Positions 3,437 to 32,548 of a stretch of 35,216 nt of DNA are shown here, piece by piece. Where the stretch lies: contig QIAB01000075.1 of NCBI GenBank assembly GCA_003225455.1, positions 45,401 through 80,616 on the forward strand, in the 5' to 3' direction. This DNA comes from Acidobacteriota bacterium. GTDB lineage: Bacteria; Acidobacteriota; Terriglobia; Terriglobales; Acidobacteriaceae. Numbering within the stretch: position 1 is the first letter of the stretch; the number at the start of each line of letters is the position of its first letter. Both the position numbers and the translations under genes were made by a program. Under the pieces are notes generated by a model. That model did not search any database, was not told where the DNA came from, and was given only the letters and a program-made list of their open reading frames with translations.

Positions 3437-5119
3437 TTGCCCTACGACGACCTGCGTAGCTGGATCGCTGCCCTCGACCACGCCGGCGAGCTGAGAAGAA
3501 TAGGCACCGAAGTCGATCCAGTTCTCGAGATCACCGAGATCACAGATCGCGTGAGCAAAGGCCACGTAGGCACAGACGTCTCGTCTGTGCGGGCGAGCAA
3601 CGCTCGCCAGTCTAATGGCATCCGGAAATCTTCGCCCGGCCCAGCCCTCCTCTTTCAAAACATCAAGGGTCATCCCGGTCATCAGCTTCTGATCAACCAG
3701 TTCGGCTCCGCGCGCCGCATGAACCTGGCGCTCGAGGTCGATTCGCTCGACGAGATCGCCGACCGCATTCGCCACTTCATGGACGTGAAATCCCCTCAGG
3801 GTTTTCTCGACAAAGTGAAGATGTTGCCAATGTTGGCGGAAATGGGAAAGTTCTTTCCGAAGACGGTTTCCACCGGCCCGTGTAAAGAAGTCATCCGCAA
3901 AGAAAACTTCTCTCTGGACTGGTTCCCCATCCTTCAGTGTTGGCCGAAGGATGCCGGACGCTTTATAACTCTGCCGTGTGTCATCACCCGCGATCCCAAA
4001 ACTGGCAAGCGCAACGTCGGTTGCTATCGTTTGCAGGTTTATGATGAGCGTACTACTGGATTTCACGCCCAGCGTCAGAAGGTTGCGGCAGAGCATTTTC
4101 GGGAAGCGCTGCGGCGCTCCGCAGCGCAGGACCCTGCCGATGCTCACGTGGGGACGGGCGCCCTCGCCCGTCCGGCCGGGCGAAGCCCGGCTGAGCTCTC
4201 CCGCTCTGCCGTAGACATCATGGCGCGTTCTTCGGGCGGATCGGTGCTCGTTGAAGGTCCCCGTCCATCGGGCAAGATGGAAGTTGCTGTGGCGATTGGA
4301 ACCGACCCGGCGGTGACTTTCTCGTCCATTGTTCCAGCGCCACCAGATGTTGAGGAATATCTGATCGCTGGCTTTCTTCGCCAGAACCCTGTCGAGCTCG
4401 TCAAATGCGAAACTGTTGACCTCGAAGTCCCCGCTTCTTCCGAAATCGTGCTTGAGGGTCACGTGCATCTCGACGAACTCCGTACTGAGGGCCCTTTTGG
4501 CGACCACACCGGTTTTTATTCTCTGGAAGATCTCTATCCCGTGCTTCATCTCTCCTGCATTACGCATCGCAAAAATCCGATTTATGCGACCACCATCGTC
4601 GGCAAGCCTCCCATGGAGGACGCCTGGATGGGCAAGGCCGTCACGCGCATTTTTCTTCCCCTAATGAAGCTCACGATCCCTGAGCTCGTCGATATCAATC
4701 TGCCGGTCGAGGGCATCTTTCACAACCTGATGATCGTCTCGATCAGGAAATCCTATCCCGGCCAGGCGCGCAAAGTGATGAATGCGATCTGGTCGCTCGG
4801 GCAAGCGATGTTCACTAAATGCATTATCGTCGTGGACGAGGACGTCAACGTTCAAGACATCGCCGAGGTCACTCTCAAAGTCCTCAATCACATCGATCCC
4901 GAGCGCGACATCCAGTTCACGCTCGGCCCTATCGATTCGCTTGACCACGCCTCGCGCCTGCCGAACTACGGATCGAAAATGGGCATTGACGCGACCCGCA
5001 AGTGGGCGAGCGAAGGATTTACCCGTCCCTGGCCGGATGAAATCCTGATGGACGCCAAGACCAAAGCTGTCGTCGACATCAAATGGAAAACGCTGGCAAA
5101 AGAGCTGGGGCTGGAGTGA
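3437..5119 (+). CDS. UbiD-family (de)carboxylase with two repeat-encoded insertions
   Basis: A 560-residue prenylated-FMN-dependent decarboxylase of the UbiD family, which acts on aromatic or alpha,beta-unsaturated carboxylates in the cytosol. Family hallmarks are clear: DLRSWIAALDHAGELRRI at the start, ENFSLDWFPILQCWPKDAGRFIT, GKRNVGCYRLQVYDERTTGFH, the catalytic Glu region LRTEGPFGDHTGFYS, and KPPMEDAWMGKAVTRIFLP. The start is TTG, with GAGCGAGG upstream. Two stretches do not look like UbiD: about residues 45-70 and 230-260. Both coincide with hairpin repeats (3570-3608 and 4152-4191) and keep the frame open. The insertions fall near the N-terminal domain border and before the VAVAIGTDPA block, so the fold may tolerate them. 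It could serve quinone or aromatic metabolism; no ubiX partner is in the window. Confidence 0.9.
   Translation: MPYDDLRSWIAALDHAGELRRIGTEVDPVLEITEITDRVSKGHVGTDVSSVRASNARQSNGIRKSSPGPALLFQNIKGHPGHQLLINQFGSARRMNLALEVDSLDEIADRIRHFMDVKSPQGFLDKVKMLPMLAEMGKFFPKTVSTGPCKEVIRKENFSLDWFPILQCWPKDAGRFITLPCVITRDPKTGKRNVGCYRLQVYDERTTGFHAQRQKVAAEHFREALRRSAAQDPADAHVGTGALARPAGRSPAELSRSAVDIMARSSGGSVLVEGPRPSGKMEVAVAIGTDPAVTFSSIVPAPPDVEEYLIAGFLRQNPVELVKCETVDLEVPASSEIVLEGHVHLDELRTEGPFGDHTGFYSLEDLYPVLHLSCITHRKNPIYATTIVGKPPMEDAWMGKAVTRIFLPLMKLTIPELVDINLPVEGIFHNLMIVSIRKSYPGQARKVMNAIWSLGQAMFTKCIIVVDEDVNVQDIAEVTLKVLNHIDPERDIQFTLGPIDSLDHASRLPNYGSKMGIDATRKWASEGFTRPWPDEILMDAKTKAVVDIKWKTLAKELGLE
3570..3608 (+). repeat. composite two-hairpin repeat inside the UbiD-type gene
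   Basis: Hairpin A is GCACAGACG, loop TCT, CGTCTGTGC (3570-3590). Hairpin B is GGCGAGC, loop AAC, GCTCGCC (3592-3608). The same A-then-B layout occurs at 4152, 5183, 5388 (reverse) and 32139. Here it is translated as part of residues 45-58 of the UbiD-type protein. Confidence 0.8.
4152..4191 (+). repeat. composite two-hairpin repeat inside the UbiD-type gene
   Basis: Hairpin A is GGACGGGCG, loop CCCT, CGCCCGTCC (4152-4173). Hairpin B is GCCGGGC, loop GAA, GCCCGGC (4175-4191). Hairpin A is identical to that of the intergenic copy at 5183-5204, so the same element exists both in and out of a gene within 1 kb. It encodes ALARPAGRSPA, which is foreign to UbiD. Confidence 0.85.
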
Positions 5120-5182
5120 AGATTTTTTGATTTTATTTTCCGAGGCAAGTCCCCACGGGATGAGCCGCCACTGCTCGTGTGG

Positions 5183-5223
5183 GGACGGGCGCCCTCGCCC
5201 GTCCAGGTCGAGCGAAGCCCGAC
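5183..5223 (+). repeat. composite two-hairpin repeat
   Basis: Hairpin A (5183-5204) matches the UbiD-internal copy at 4152 base for base. Hairpin B is GTCGAGC, loop GAA, GCCCGAC (5207-5223) with one mispair. It is preceded by the same GTGTGGG/CGTGGGG lead-in. Confidence 0.8.
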
Positions 5224-5387
5224 GGCAAGGCTTGGGCCCTGCTTCGCGGGCGGAGGCGCCCGCGCCACACCTACGTTGATAGCAGTTGCCAGGCTTCCAG
5301 GTACTTCTCATACGCTCCACCGTCCGCGCTTCTTGCCAAGGTATTAAACGAATGAACATATTGCTCAGAATATCCGCGTACGTCGCT

Positions 5388-5427
5388 GCCGAGCTGCGCT
5401 CGGCTGGACAGCCGAGGGCGGCTGTCC
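5388..5427 (-). repeat. composite two-hairpin repeat, reverse orientation
   Basis: On the minus strand: GGACAGCC, loop GCCCTC, GGCTGTCC, then GCCGAGC, loop GCA, GCTCGGC. It is nearly the same as the copy at 32139-32178 some 27 kb away, which is on the other strand. Confidence 0.8.
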
Positions 5428-5587
5428 CTACGCGGTCTGTGGTGAGCGATCAGAGTCACACGAGCGGGACGCTCGCGCCTACATCAAAATGACCCACGCC
5501 GGTACATTCCCCACGTTGCTCGTCAAACGTAAATCCTGAAACACAACCCGCCCTGCGGGATTTGCGTCTGAATTGCGGGAGAGAAGT

Positions 5588-14885: not shown

Positions 14886-15776
14886 CTATTTCTTGACGGT
14901 TACGGCCACGCCATCGCGGATCGGCAGGATCGTGGTAAATAAATCCGGCGAGTTATACAGCAGTCGATTAAATTCCAAAATTGCTTTGGTGGATTTCTCT
15001 GCGGGATTTTTCTGCGCGACTTTGCCGCTCCAGAGCACGTTGTCGGTGACGAAAAGGCCGCCTTTGCGCAGCTTGGGAATGGCGATACGAAAGACTCGCG
15101 GGGAGTCTTCTTTATCCACGTCGTTGAAAATGATGTCGAACTGCTGCTTTTCTTCTGACAGCAGTTCGAGCGCGTCTCCGGTCTTAACAGCGATGCGGTC
15201 ACTGACGCCGGCGCGGTCAAAATACTTTCGTGCACGAGCGGCGTTATTGGAATCGCCATCGGTGTAAATCACCTGGCCGCCACCAGCGATGGCACGCGCC
15301 CACCAGATGGTCGAGTAGCCAATCGCCGAGCCCATTTCGAAAACGTTCTTAGCTTTTGTCATGAGTGCCAGTTGATACAGAAGGCGGCCGACTGCCGGGC
15401 CAACAATCGGGACTTTGTGCCTCGCGGCTTCAGTCTCCATTTCGGCGAGAACCTCATCCCGCGGCGGCAAGAGGGAGTAGATGTAGTCTTCAACGGCAGT
15501 TGTGGTGATTCCGCCCATGCGCCAATAGTCGTTGATCTTCTTTTTTTCCAAAATTGCTTTGGTGGATTTCTCTGCGGGATTTTTCTGCGCGACTTTGCCG
15601 CTCCAGAGCACGTTGTCGGTGACGAAAAGGCCGCCTTTGCGCAGCTTGGGAATGGCGATACGAAAGACTCGCGGGGAGTCTTCTTTATCCACGTCGTTGA
15701 AAATGATGTCGAACTGCTGCTTTTCTTCTGACAGCAGTTCGAGCAAAATCGATATGCCGATCCGATTACCCAACAT
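14886..15776 (-). CDS. SAM-dependent O-methyltransferase with duplicated N-terminal extension
   Basis: From about residue 78 (KKKINDYWRMGGITTTAVEDYIYSLLPPRDEVLAEME) to the end this is an ordinary class I O-methyltransferase of the caffeoyl-CoA/catechol type, about 220 residues. It has the SAM-binding EMGSAIGYSTIWWARA, the acidic YTDGD and the metal-binding FDIIFNDVDKED. It would methylate a hydroxyl of a small molecule with Mg2+. Residues 12-77 are an exact copy of residues 203-268, encoded by a perfect 199-bp DNA repeat, and replace the normal N-terminus. The first ten residues (MLGNRIGISI) look unrelated. The extension lacks the SAM motif and would be a useless half-domain, so the active protein might start at a TTG at 15551. 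Possibly a recent rearrangement or an assembly error. Divergent from hpt. Confidence 0.8.
   Translation of the reverse strand: MLGNRIGISILLELLSEEKQQFDIIFNDVDKEDSPRVFRIAIPKLRKGGLFVTDNVLWSGKVAQKNPAEKSTKAILEKKKINDYWRMGGITTTAVEDYIYSLLPPRDEVLAEMETEAARHKVPIVGPAVGRLLYQLALMTKAKNVFEMGSAIGYSTIWWARAIAGGGQVIYTDGDSNNAARARKYFDRAGVSDRIAVKTGDALELLSEEKQQFDIIFNDVDKEDSPRVFRIAIPKLRKGGLFVTDNVLWSGKVAQKNPAEKSTKAILEFNRLLYNSPDLFTTILPIRDGVAVTVKK
14973..15171 (-). repeat. 199-bp direct repeat, copy 1 (native position)
   Basis: Identical, by base-by-base reading, to 15546-15744. It encodes the core strand region LELLSEEKQQFDIIFN...KAILE in its normal place in the methyltransferase. The two copies are exactly 573 bp (191 codons) apart, so both are in the same frame. 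Confidence 0.95.
15546..15744 (-). repeat. 199-bp direct repeat, copy 2 (displaced, at gene 5' end)
   Basis: An exact second copy of 14973-15171 fused in frame upstream of the methyltransferase N-terminal helix. One boundary is at a T-run (15541-15547) and the other at 'gagc|aaaatcgat'. No target-site duplication or mobile-element end is visible at the edges. Confidence 0.95.
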
Positions 15777-15888
15777 AGGCTGAACGCTGATTGCGCTTCA
15801 TTCTATTGAGCAGAGCAGGCCGAGCGCAACGGCCCGCGGCGAAACCAAAACTTTGACTCGGAGATTTTGGCGAGTAATATGGAGCGCC

Positions 15889-16440
15889 GTGACTGAATTG
15901 AAAATCCTGATTTCGCGCGAACAGATCGCCACCCGGGTGACTGCGATGGCTGCTGACATCACTCGTGATTTTGCTGGCGAGCAGGTAATCTTTGTTGGCG
16001 TACTGAAGGGTGCAGCGATTTTCCTGAGCGATCTCGCGCGGCAGGTCAAGCTGGAGGCTACGTTCGACTTCATAGGAGTCTCGAGTTATGGCAATCGGCC
16101 AAGTCCGGCTCAGGAATTGAAAAGCGGATGGGATTCGACCGGCGAAGTTCGCCTGACCAAAGATGCCGATCAATCTATGCAGGGCAAGAACGTAATTCTC
16201 GTCGAAGATATTCTGGACACCGGGCTTACGCTCACGTATTTGAAGAAGCTGATTCTGGCGCGGCAACCCAAAACGTTTCGCATTGCCGCTCTGCTTGATA
16301 AGCCGTCGCGCCGCAAGCAGCCGATCCAGGCTGATTACGTGGGATTCAGCATCCCCGATGAGTTCGTTGTTGGGTACGGTTTGGATTATGCGGAACGCTA
16401 CCGGAATTTGCCCGATATTTGCGTTGTGCCACGGGAGTGA
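15889..16440 (+). CDS. hpt: hypoxanthine phosphoribosyltransferase
   Basis: A 183-residue type I phosphoribosyltransferase that salvages hypoxanthine (and often guanine) with PRPP. The PRPP-binding motif VILVEDILDTGLT spans residues 102-114. VIFVGVLKGAAIFLSDLAR gives the pyrophosphate loop with the Lys-Gly pair, FDFIGVSSYGN the flexible loop, and the C-terminal LDKPSRRK...ADYVGFSIPDEFVVGYGLDYAERYRNLP is the characteristic HPRT purine site. I start at GTG 15889 because GGAG lies four bases before it and the length then matches the family; the frame is open a little further upstream. It is divergent from the rearranged methyltransferase and 78 bp before the phosphatase gene, with which it may be co-transcribed. 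Confidence 0.93.
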   Translation: MTELKILISREQIATRVTAMAADITRDFAGEQVIFVGVLKGAAIFLSDLARQVKLEATFDFIGVSSYGNRPSPAQELKSGWDSTGEVRLTKDADQSMQGKNVILVEDILDTGLTLTYLKKLILARQPKTFRIAALLDKPSRRKQPIQADYVGFSIPDEFVVGYGLDYAERYRNLPDICVVPRE

Positions 16441-19794: not shown

Positions 19795-19831
19795 CTCCGG
19801 CGCGAGCGTAGCGAGCGCCGGAGTGTGGTCG

Positions 19832-20983
19832 ATGCCTTGGAAGACGATGGATGTCCAGGAACAACGTGTGAAGTTCGTGTTAGCGGCGGCACGGCAGGAG
19901 AAGCCGTTCGGTGGGTTGTGTCAGCAATTCGGCATCTCGCGTCCGACGGGGTATCGGTGGCGAGAGCGGTATCAGCGGGGCGGGCTGGCGGCAATTGCAG
20001 AACTGAGTCGGCGACCGCACCACAGCCCGCAACGCACCGCGACCGAGTTGGAGCAGCGCGTTGTGGAGATACGACGCCGCTATCCAGACTGGGGCGCGAG
20101 GAAGTTACAAGTGCTACTGGCGCGAGAGGGCAAGGACCTGCGGCGCAGCACGATTCACCGCATTCTGTTGCGCCACGATCTAGTGCGAGACACGGATCGG
20201 CATCAATTGGCGATGCAACGCTTCGAACGCGGTGCACCCAATGAACTGTGGCAGATGGACTTCAAGAGTCCGAAAGGATGGAACGCACCGATCGGGCCGT
20301 TGTCGGTGCTGGATGACCACAGCCGCTACCTACTGGTATTACAGGCGATATGGAGTACGCGCGCCGAACTGGTCCGAGAACAACTGGAAAGCGCTTTCAT
20401 GAGCTGCGGTGTACCTTCGGCGATGCTGATGGACCACGGCATTCCCTGGTGGAGCACGCTGGCGCCGAGCGGTGCGACCGAGTTGACGATCTGGCTGATG
20501 AAACAAGGAATCGAGCTGCACTGGAGTGGGCGGCGGCATCCCCAGACGCAAGGGAAAGTGGAACGCTTTCACGGGGAACTGGAGCGTGCTCTGCAACTGC
20601 GAGGTGCGCCGCGAAAAGAGCCGCAATCTTGGCTGGACGCCTTTCGCTGGGAGCACAATCATGTTCGGCCGCATGAAGCTTTAGGAATGCAAACCCCAGC
20701 CAGTCGCTGGCAGCAAAGTCCACGGCGTTACGATCCGCGGCCCCCAGCTTGGGAGTATCCGGCGGGCACGAAGGTCCGAAAAGTAGACAGCTGGGGCAAG
20801 CTCCATGCCTGGGGCACCACTTGGAACATCAGCAAGGGACTGTGTGGAGAACGAGTGCAACTGGAGCGCATCGGTGACCGGGTACTGGTGTTTTACTGTC
20901 GTACCCTGGTCCGCGAACTCGATCTCACGACCCATCGCTCGACCGCGGTCGAGCGATGGGTCGTGGAACCCGGCTACGAATGA
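19832..20983 (+). CDS. IS481-family DDE transposase
   Basis: A 383-residue integrase-fold transposase. An N-terminal helix-turn-helix (QEKPFGGLCQQFGISRPTGYRWRERYQRGG, about residues 22-51) is followed by a linker and the rve catalytic core with Asp143 (ELWQMDFKSPKG), Asp201 (SAMLMDHGIPWW) and Glu244 (TQGKVERFHGELERAL). The NHVRPHEALGMQTPASRW phrase after the core is standard for IS481. I choose the ATG at 19832 (MPWKTMD); a GTG at 19823 is in frame. The 3' part adds a beta-rich tail (KVRKVDSWGKLHAWGTTWNI) also known in this family. Full length and intact. Confidence 0.93.
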   Translation: MPWKTMDVQEQRVKFVLAAARQEKPFGGLCQQFGISRPTGYRWRERYQRGGLAAIAELSRRPHHSPQRTATELEQRVVEIRRRYPDWGARKLQVLLAREGKDLRRSTIHRILLRHDLVRDTDRHQLAMQRFERGAPNELWQMDFKSPKGWNAPIGPLSVLDDHSRYLLVLQAIWSTRAELVREQLESAFMSCGVPSAMLMDHGIPWWSTLAPSGATELTIWLMKQGIELHWSGRRHPQTQGKVERFHGELERALQLRGAPRKEPQSWLDAFRWEHNHVRPHEALGMQTPASRWQQSPRRYDPRPPAWEYPAGTKVRKVDSWGKLHAWGTTWNISKGLCGERVQLERIGDRVLVFYCRTLVRELDLTTHRSTAVERWVVEPGYE

Positions 20984-21040: not shown

Positions 21041-21313
21041 TGGTTTTGCAAAGGTGGGCACCACGGACGCGATCTCAGGTTCATTCGTCACAGTCCACGA
21101 TTGGATATCTATGGTACGCCGGAGGCATGCCGAGCCGGAGCAGTGGAATTCACACTTCGTCCCGAAGTTGAGCGTTCCTCACAAGTGGAATGGTCTGATT
21201 TTGAAAGCGCATTTTCGCGCGACCTCTCGACGATTATTGAGGCTTGGGAAACTCACCACCTTAGTCAGTCGCTCGTGGCATAGTCCGAGAGCTAGCTTGG
21301 ACCGGACCGGTGG

Positions 21314-21344
21314 CCCACTCAAGCCCGGTTTTGGCTTGAGTGGG
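21314..21344 (+). repeat. 12-bp-stem hairpin repeat, copy 1
   Basis: CCCACTCAAGCC, loop CGGTTTT, GGCTTGAGTGGG: a perfect stem. The loop resembles the TGGTTTTG loop into which the IS481 element inserted 270 bp upstream. Confidence 0.75.
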
Positions 21345-21524
21345 GGAGTTCCGTAGTTGGACAGAGCGTTCCCGCTGCGCGTTCGCGTTTCCGTGCCGTC
21401 CATTCGACTCGATCTCTACGCGTCGCTCGCCCCAAAACAACACAAGGTCCCTCCACTCCGCAGATCAGCGTTCTAGCGGTGATCTGCTCCGGTCGGGATG
21501 ACAAGATTGAGAAGATCTGAACAT

Positions 21525-21557
21525 CCCCACTCAAGCCAAAAGCGGGCTTGAATGGGG
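21525..21557 (-). repeat. 13-bp-stem hairpin repeat, copy 2 (inverted)
   Basis: CCCCACTCAAGCC, loop AAAAGCG, GGCTTGAATGGGG with one mismatch. Its reverse complement matches copy 1 at 21314, so this is the same element turned round. It may also act as a terminator for the minus-strand gene's neighbourhood, but there is no T-run. Confidence 0.7.
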
Positions 21558-21616
21558 CACCCGTCGGACCAGGGGGAATTATCTATGTAGAAGCGCCCGC
21601 AGCTTGCGGAGATGCA

Positions 21617-28633: not shown

Positions 28634-29058
28634 CCGTCTACGCTGACAGCAGTTTCCTCGCCGCGCTCTACGTCGAAGATTCGCATTCCGCAGTCACGCA
28701 GGAGTGGATGCGACAGAATCCACGCGTTTGGTTTACTCCACTCAACTTAGCTGAATGTTTTCATGCTATCGCCAAGCAGGTCTTCTATCGCAAGATTTCC
28801 CAAACTGCCGCTGCCGCTATCTTCCAAATCTTGCAGCGTGACCGCGCCGACGGCTTATACCTTGAGACTGCGATGCCGGAAAATGCCTTTAATCTTTGCG
28901 CCGAACTCGGTCGCCGCTATGGACCGAAGCTTGGGATGCGCACACTCGACACCCTGCATGTCGCATGCGCACTGGAATTAAAGGCGGAACGCTTTTGGAC
29001 GTTTGATGAGCGGCAGGCGAAGTTGGCTAAGACTGCAGGGTTGAAAACTACGGAATAA
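28630..29058 (+). CDS. VapC-type PIN-domain toxin (apparent CTG start)
   Basis: A 142-residue PIN-domain ribonuclease. Active-site acids are in place if translation begins at CTG 28630: Asp5 (VYADSSFLAALYVED), Glu42 (LNLAECFHA), Asp107 (MRTLDTLHVACALE) and Asp126 (FWTFDERQAKLA). The next ATG (28708) would delete the first catalytic Asp, and there is no ATG, GTG or TTG in frame between. CTGA overlaps the antitoxin stop exactly as ATGA does in related operons, so CTG is the probable start, giving weak, coupled translation. The toxin would cleave RNA, often tRNA, when the antitoxin is lost. Confidence 0.88.
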   Translation: MTVYADSSFLAALYVEDSHSAVTQEWMRQNPRVWFTPLNLAECFHAIAKQVFYRKISQTAAAAIFQILQRDRADGLYLETAMPENAFNLCAELGRRYGPKLGMRTLDTLHVACALELKAERFWTFDERQAKLAKTAGLKTTE

Positions 29059-29102: not shown

Positions 29103-29357
29103 ATGGCGATTAGTATCAAGAGTATAGAGACGGAGCAGCTAGCCCGCGAGATTGCAGCCAAGACCGGGGAAAGCCTAACCGGTGCCATTCAGAAAGCGTT
29201 GGAAGAGCGGTTGGAGCGGCTCAAGAATAACCGCCGGAGCCAGGCCCTCGCAGCCCAACTCGATGACATTTTGCGGCGTGTGGATGAAATGCCCGATCTC
29301 GATTCTCGCACTCCAGACGAGATAATCGGATACGACGAAGATGGTCTCCCTCGTTGA
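29103..29357 (+). CDS. vapB: VapB-type antitoxin (PSK/Rv0623-like)
   Basis: An 84-residue antitoxin: MAISIKSIETEQLAREIAAKTGESLTGAIQKALEERLERLKNNRR is the ribbon-helix-helix-like N-terminus of the Rv0623/PSK family. Then comes an acidic C-terminal tail (DDILRRVDEMPDLDSRTPDEIIGYDEDGLPR) that would occupy the toxin active site. It precedes its toxin by 12 bp. A different family from the antitoxin at 28397, so the two modules are not a duplication of each other. Confidence 0.9.
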   Translation: MAISIKSIETEQLAREIAAKTGESLTGAIQKALEERLERLKNNRRSQALAAQLDDILRRVDEMPDLDSRTPDEIIGYDEDGLPR

Positions 29358-29369
29358 GGCGGGAATGCA

Positions 29370-29762
29370 ATGGTCATAGATACCTCCGCCTTGGCGGCAA
29401 TCTTTTTCCATGAAATGGAGCGCGATGTCTTCCGCGCCGCGATTCTAGCCGCAAACACTCGCCTGATCTCTGCCGCGACCGTGCTGGAAACGGGCATGGT
29501 AATCGAAGCTCGCCGCGGAGAAGGCGCGGGCCGCGAATTCGATCTGTTTGCCGTGCGCGCCCTTCAAATCGTCGCCGTGGATGCGGAACAGGCCGAACTG
29601 GCGCGCTCCGCCTGGCGCAAGTACGGGAAAGGTCGTCACCCTGCGGCACTCAACTTCGGAGACTGTTTCGTGTACGCTCTGGCGAAAGCCACTGGCGAGC
29701 CCGTCCTGGCCAAGGGCACTGAATTCGCTCGGACAGATGTTGAAGTATGTGCCACTACTTAA
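29370..29762 (+). CDS. vapC: VapC-type PIN-domain toxin
   Basis: A 130-residue PIN ribonuclease: MVIDTSALAAIFFHEMERDVF (Asp4), SAATVLETGMVIEARRG (Glu40), HPAALNFGDCFVYALAKATGEPVLAKGTEFARTDVE (Asp98). The fourth acidic position, usually Asp in a GxDF motif, is Glu118 in GTEF. It would be an RNA-cleaving toxin neutralised by the preceding VapB. Start at ATG 29370, following GGCGGGAATGCA. 29763-29991 downstream holds no gene I can support. Confidence 0.92.
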   Translation: MVIDTSALAAIFFHEMERDVFRAAILAANTRLISAATVLETGMVIEARRGEGAGREFDLFAVRALQIVAVDAEQAELARSAWRKYGKGRHPAALNFGDCFVYALAKATGEPVLAKGTEFARTDVEVCATT

Positions 29763-32097: not shown

Positions 32098-32548
32098 GAG
32101 TTCGCTCCTTCGGCAGGCAGCCTCTACAGACCACGTAGGGACAGCCGCCCTCGGCTGTCCGGCCGAGCGAAGCTCGGCATGTTTCGCGGGAAACACGGAT
32201 CTAAAGCTACGGCGGGCACATAAGATCCAGAGAAGAAGAGGATGATCTGCCTACCGCAATCAGACAGCCTGTCAAAACCTAAAATCCTAACACACAGGAA
32301 TTTCACGGCTCAACCCACCGCGCAGGGCGGTGGTGGGTTAGTTTGAGGGTAATGATGAAAAGCCGCGACACACGAAAGATATCTTTGCGTGCTTTGGGAG
32401 ACCTTTGTGAGCTTTGCGGCAAAAGCTCTTAACCGCAAAGGCCGCGGAGCATTCGCCAAGGGCGCAAAGTAGCCACTACCCGCAACAGGGTTCATGCGTA
32501 TTGCTCACGAGCTACTCTTGGGCGTAGCGTCAGGTCTTCGGAACCTCC
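32098..32548. other. gene-free stretch with hairpin repeats
   Basis: It holds the composite repeat (32139-32178), a hairpin with arms AACCCACC and GGTGGGTT (32312-32339), and boilerplate of the 'ttaaccgcaaagg' kind around 32420-32470. Short frames across it only translate these repeats. The promoters of the EF-G paralogue and the DoxX gene must lie here, but no clear box stands out. Confidence 0.7.
32139..32178 (+). repeat. composite two-hairpin repeat
   Basis: Hairpin A is GGACAGCC, loop GCCCTC, GGCTGTCC (32139-32160). Hairpin B is GCCGAGC, loop GAA, GCTCGGC (32162-32178). It is the forward counterpart of the copy at 5388-5427. Confidence 0.85.

Follow-up and report, generated by a model that had tools for sequence, protein, structure and literature searches.

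An exact copy of an internal segment of an O-methyltransferase gene lies directly in front of that gene in the window (the whole stretch of 35,216 nucleotides that was analysed, from a draft genome of soil-type Acidobacteria), and the copy was probably produced by a recent, local, templated insertion, with the loss of a neighbouring hydrolase gene either preceding or following the copying. That the arrangement is a real rearrangement rather than an artefact of assembly is judged quite likely. The event is of an ordinary kind, and nothing points to a switch. The features on which the argument turns are the following.

14886..15551, minus strand: complete O-methyltransferase (PF01596 class), 221 amino acids from the inferred ancestral TTG at 15551-15549, placed by the PF01596 match, the alignments of relatives and the position of the TTG.
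14973..15171, minus strand: native (source) copy, covering the second half of the Rossmann core (FNDVDKED ... TDNVLWSGKV); the sole match sits here in 80/80 relatives.
15546..15744, minus strand: displaced identical copy, directly upstream of the methyltransferase; no second copy occurs in 80/80 loci.

The two copies are identical over 199/199 bp (100% identity), as found both by a repeat search and by a separate scan of the window. They are offset by 573 bp, which is 191 codons, and are parted by 374 unique bases; an exact template for an insertion is thereby present in all 199 bases at a distance of 573 bp. A single open frame of 296 amino acids runs through both copies on the minus strand from 15776 to 14886, and within it the repeat occupies amino acids 12-77 and 203-268, 191 residues apart. 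The exact in-frame duplication of 199 bp, spaced by 573 bp or 191 codons, which was the core of the original prediction, is thus recovered by the repeat search and the open reading frame alike. The absence of any difference in 199 positions bounds the divergence of the copies at less than about 1.5% (95% bound), as against 84% protein identity to the nearest methyltransferase among the relatives. The prediction had taken zero divergence to mean a very recent event, gene conversion or a misassembly, and what stands of this is an exact partial duplication that is either very recent or artefactual.

The pair is the sole exact direct repeat of at least 100 bp in about 265 kb of the 4.99-Mb genome, scanned stretch by stretch. 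The scan covered the window and 20 stretches of its genome (299,798 bases, or about 265 kb once the overlap between the window and contig C181 is subtracted, with N excluded), and repeats were sought inside each stretch, never between stretches. The next-longest exact direct repeats in the same sequence, from a minimum of 40 bp, measure 87, 64 and 51 bp, and the 87-bp match belongs to a 78-bp tandem array. The longest exact direct repeat inside the 80 relative loci (487,764 bases) is 56 bp.

Repeated sequence of other kinds is found elsewhere in the window. A GC-rich REP-like family is present at 4136-4173, 5167-5204, 5387-5440 and 32123-32179, and its copy at 4136-4173 falls inside a UbiD-type decarboxylase frame (3437-5119) whose PF01977 match is split in two stretches. 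An IS481-family transposase occupies 19823-20983, and about 320 bp downstream of it are the 47-nt arms of an inverted repeat (21305-21351 and 21519-21565). Two PIN-domain proteins (PF01850) are encoded close together at 28708-29058 and 29370-29762; a small ORF at 29103-29357 precedes the second, an arrangement like that of VapBC-type pairs.

The identification of the native copy requires a comparison with loci in which the duplication is absent. Such a comparison with orthologues lacking the extension, which the original prediction had proposed, gives a uniform answer: the copied peptide occurs in exactly one place in 80/80 relative loci, always at the native position, with the reservation that three of these loci (L029, L053 and L066) have less than 200 bp of upstream sequence, in which an upstream copy could not have shown. 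A separate set of 19 loci, drawn in part from the same genomes as the 80, also contains the peptide in one place in 19/19 cases. Since the relatives have the segment only where the native copy lies, it is the copy at 15546-15744 that is new.

The gene behind the new copy is whole. The PF01596 match scores 181.4 bits against a curated cut-off of 22 and extends over amino acids 107-295 of the open frame and positions 8-203 of the 204 in the profile, and the 19 best relatives align from amino acids 68-87 onward. Matches to the frame are found in 56/61 genomes and in 318/398 genomes, counts that both include the window's own genome and many distant paralogues; the methyltransferase protein of the nearest relative is 84% identical. 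Seven residues (E147, G149, G153, D219, D221, D245 and N246), which we take to be the expected SAM- and metal-site residues, are common to 42/42 aligned sequences (the window and 41 of the 80 loci). The best solved relative by sequence is 3cbg, which aligns over residues 19-220 of the 220-residue core, and a search of NCBIfam with the methyltransferase gave no match above cut-off. AlphaFold2, run with 42 sequences, gives a confident core with a mean pLDDT of 84.3 (five models, 63.9 to 84.3). The original prediction was right that the second copy is fused in frame at the 5' end of the gene, and mistaken that a partial core had replaced the start: the whole catalytic domain is present and the TTG is still at the joint, so that the copy was added ahead of an entire gene.

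The position of this TTG agrees with the starts of the relatives. In all 13 of the relatives picked from the 80, for which start codons were assigned by the analyst, a TTG or GTG start lies 7-10 codons ahead of a conserved W and is preceded by a Shine-Dalgarno-like site whose pairing measures -6.0 to -12.1 kcal/mol (13/13). A search for the motif NDYWR, intended to place the starts, returned 0 matches in the relatives because the motif is not conserved; a search with another motif returned 27 matches, two of them in the window's own genome. The TTG at 15551 lies 9 codons ahead of the W, as in 8/13 relatives. What lies upstream of it is the sequence of the copy, where pairing with the ribosome reaches only -2.9 kcal/mol. 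The TTG at 15746 has Shine-Dalgarno-like pairing of -4.1 kcal/mol, and none was found upstream of the ATG at 15776. To judge from the sequence, the ancestral start codon would have been retained and the usual ribosome-binding site lost, and with that site missing translation is uncertain.

That the extension is a functional N-terminal domain, or part of an on/off arrangement maintained by selection, we consider very improbable. The 75 codons ahead of the TTG do stay open, but the chance of an in-frame copy is about one in three. AlphaFold2 assigns block means of 77-85 to amino acids 11-50, but these better values may merely mirror the identity of this part with the core, and the pLDDT falls below 50 at amino acids 59-81. 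The copied part contains FNDVDKED and TDNVLWSG and lacks the SAM-binding motif EMGSAIGYS (amino acid 147), the ATG has no detected ribosome-binding site, and 0/80 relative loci have the extension. As the original prediction foresaw, 573 bp and most of the catalytic domain would be lost in a crossover between the copies. Such a loss of one unit would leave 105 amino acids, without the SAM motif, which can be counted in favour of an on/off arrangement. That loss is irreversible, however, whereas phase variation by repeat recombination must be reversible and the lost 573 bp could not be regained, and the sequence shows a single state; the switch proposed in the prediction is not supported, the deletion being one-way and a second copy being present in 0/80 relative loci. 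It is likewise scarcely to be expected that expression of the in-frame copy gives the methyltransferase a half-Rossmann domain at its N-terminus and alters how the enzyme folds, pairs or chooses its substrate; were this true, the domain would represent an early stage of a new protein, in which part of a gene has been copied onto its own start after the loss of an upstream gene.

The difference between the window and its relatives lies in the region upstream of the methyltransferase, from which both the hydrolase gene and the usual ribosome-binding site are missing. This region contains three further features.

15745..15776, minus strand: leader codons of the extended open frame, with an ATG start (MLGNRIGISIL...); resemblance to the hydrolase is weak.
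15745..15888, no strand assigned: intergenic leader separating hpt from the methyltransferase; a relaxed motif scan places a promoter-like TTGCGC-18-TAGAAT on its minus strand.
15889..16440, plus strand: hypoxanthine phosphoribosyltransferase (hpt), the divergent neighbour, with TIGR01203 above cut-off and PF00156; the start at 15889 is the analyst's choice, the list of open reading frames giving 15853.

The contig reaches hpt in 67/80 relative loci, and in 63 of these 67 a metal-dependent hydrolase (NF001911, as named on L032) lies between hpt and the methyltransferase. Two of the loci that reach hpt, L023 and L026, have no match to the hydrolase, and in two others it is broken, by an internal deletion in L033 and by the survival of the first 21 codons only in L059. 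Of the 13 loci that stop short of hpt, 11 contain the hydrolase and the other two have less than 100 bp upstream; L012 and L021, which belong to the separate 19-locus set, show no hydrolase. A search of the window's genome found no close match to the hydrolase and two distant ones, with 30 and 34% identity. The assembly is about 95% complete, and the absence could reflect its incompleteness.

A tree of 42 sequences (the window and 41 of the 80 loci) joins the window with L033 at a fork with support of 96/92; L025 and L022 join with less support, and L023 and L026 form a group of their own. The hydrolase is carried by L022, L025 and L033, in the last in broken form. A single loss shared with L023 and L026 was considered and rejected, since the window groups elsewhere, with the fork between the window and L033 the only one of these that is well supported. 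Separate losses in the window and in L023/L026 are the likelier course, though this falls short of proof, and loss or breakage of the hydrolase has probably occurred repeatedly.

The leader itself has no evident source. It occurs in single copy, with no second place in the genome, and a search for its origin in the relative loci gave 15-base words at best (E 0.09) and no convincing match; aligning the leaders with MAFFT gave no useful signal. The relaxed promoter motif occurs in 25/79 loci, a count that includes the window and for which no chance level was computed, and a stricter promoter scan did not report TTGCGC-18-TAGAAT. The possibility that MLGNRIGISIL is a remnant of the hydrolase was rejected: it resembles the start of the hydrolase (e.g. 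MKLNGIKITWL) at a few positions and lacks the common L3, G5 and W10, its profile score is negative, 86/6605 ATG-started 11-mers score at least as high (with the window region partly double-counted), and 7.0% of permutations do so as well.

The following course of events would account for these observations. The ancestral order would have been hpt (divergent), the metal-dependent hydrolase and then the O-methyltransferase, which would have started at TTG or GTG behind a ribosome-binding site of its own. Loss of the hydrolase in the window's lineage would have brought the leader up against the TTG. A DNA end may then, in the course of repair or replication, have annealed by way of ATTTTG(GAA), which is found both at the start of the methyltransferase and inside the gene; about 195 bp of the gene would have been copied before a return, leaving the exact internal segment between the leader and the start codon. 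The copy would be in frame by chance, giving the 296-residue frame with the whole enzyme encoded behind it, and its effect is probably neutral or slightly deleterious. We infer in this way the mechanism, the order of events, their recency, the presence of the arrangement in the organism and its effect on expression.

The joints of this templated insertion read as follows. In the sense of the gene, the leader ends in ...CGATTTT, and the copy begins with G and ends in ...CAATTTTGGAA, followed by AAAAAGAAG, so that the insertion is 195 bp bordered by ATTTTG at either side. The last bases of the displaced copy form the first two codons of the methyltransferase, counted from its inferred start, an end point explained by the presence of TTGGAA at both places. 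When the same search box, fixed only once the match was known, was applied to 4000 random positions of the window, 1.7% of them gave a match of at least 6 bases; a wider box contains one more 6-base match, AGAAGA. The ATTTTG match modestly favours a pre-existing site and a template switch that would have used the like sequence inside the gene. Genes for Ku and a LigD polymerase domain are present in the window's genome, which makes end joining possible and does not tie it to this event. A variant of the templated insertion, which we regard as rather improbable, would compress the history into one event in which the hydrolase and the leader of the methyltransferase were deleted and the 199-bp copy served as filler at the joint; the copy does occupy the place from which hydrolase and ribosome-binding site are absent, but the ATTTTG match across the insert then becomes a coincidence, at the 1.7% of the post-hoc box.

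It must also be considered whether the second copy was made by the assembler, perhaps in bridging a place of low coverage where the hydrolase really lies, and we hold this to be a possible but less than likely explanation. The assembly is a draft of 195 contigs; of the 20 stretches scanned, 10 contain N bases and 8 contain runs of at least 10 N. A wrong bridge would leave out a stretch such as the missing hydrolase, the copies show 0 differences, and errors of local assembly, along with identical sequence falsely repeated, are described for metagenome assemblies (PMC7111523). All 80 of the relative records are titled metagenome-assembled genomes, and the window's genome is therefore probably one too. 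Against this, the joints share 6-9 bases with the source, presumably fewer than the usual word lengths of assemblers, so that the assembler would have required reads spanning each joint; the 35-kb window is without N, and the stretches scanned (about 265 kb) contain no further exact direct repeat of at least 100 bp. The kind of error described is moreover the concatenation of one sequence, whereas here unique bases part the copies. Systematic duplication by the assembler was rejected, none being seen in the 265 kb of this genome or in the 80 relative loci.

The templated insertion offers a modest but legible case in which an upstream region has been rewritten, with a neighbour missing, a segment of the gene itself inserted and the usual ribosome-binding site gone, in a lineage of Acidobacteria that bears Ku and LigD. 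No new domain family should be founded on such an annotation: a 296-residue methyltransferase whose N-terminus looks novel may owe it to a scar of repair or to an error in the draft.

Three known systems invite comparison. The repeats made by assembly, as PMC7111523 presents them, resemble the present one in that identical sequence of hundreds of bases is repeated in a draft, but the copies in the window are not head to tail and lie 374 unique bases apart. Microhomology template switching of the MMBIR type has been proposed for human copy-number changes (PMC2621351), and it shares with the window a short match at the joint, an exact nearby template and possibly the loss of neighbouring DNA; the present case differs in being short, in coming from a bacterium and in being inferred from a single draft. 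Finally, the class I SAM-dependent O-methyltransferases (Methyltransf_3, PF01596) are matched here by a whole domain, to which the window adds a duplicated half-core, in frame and in front.
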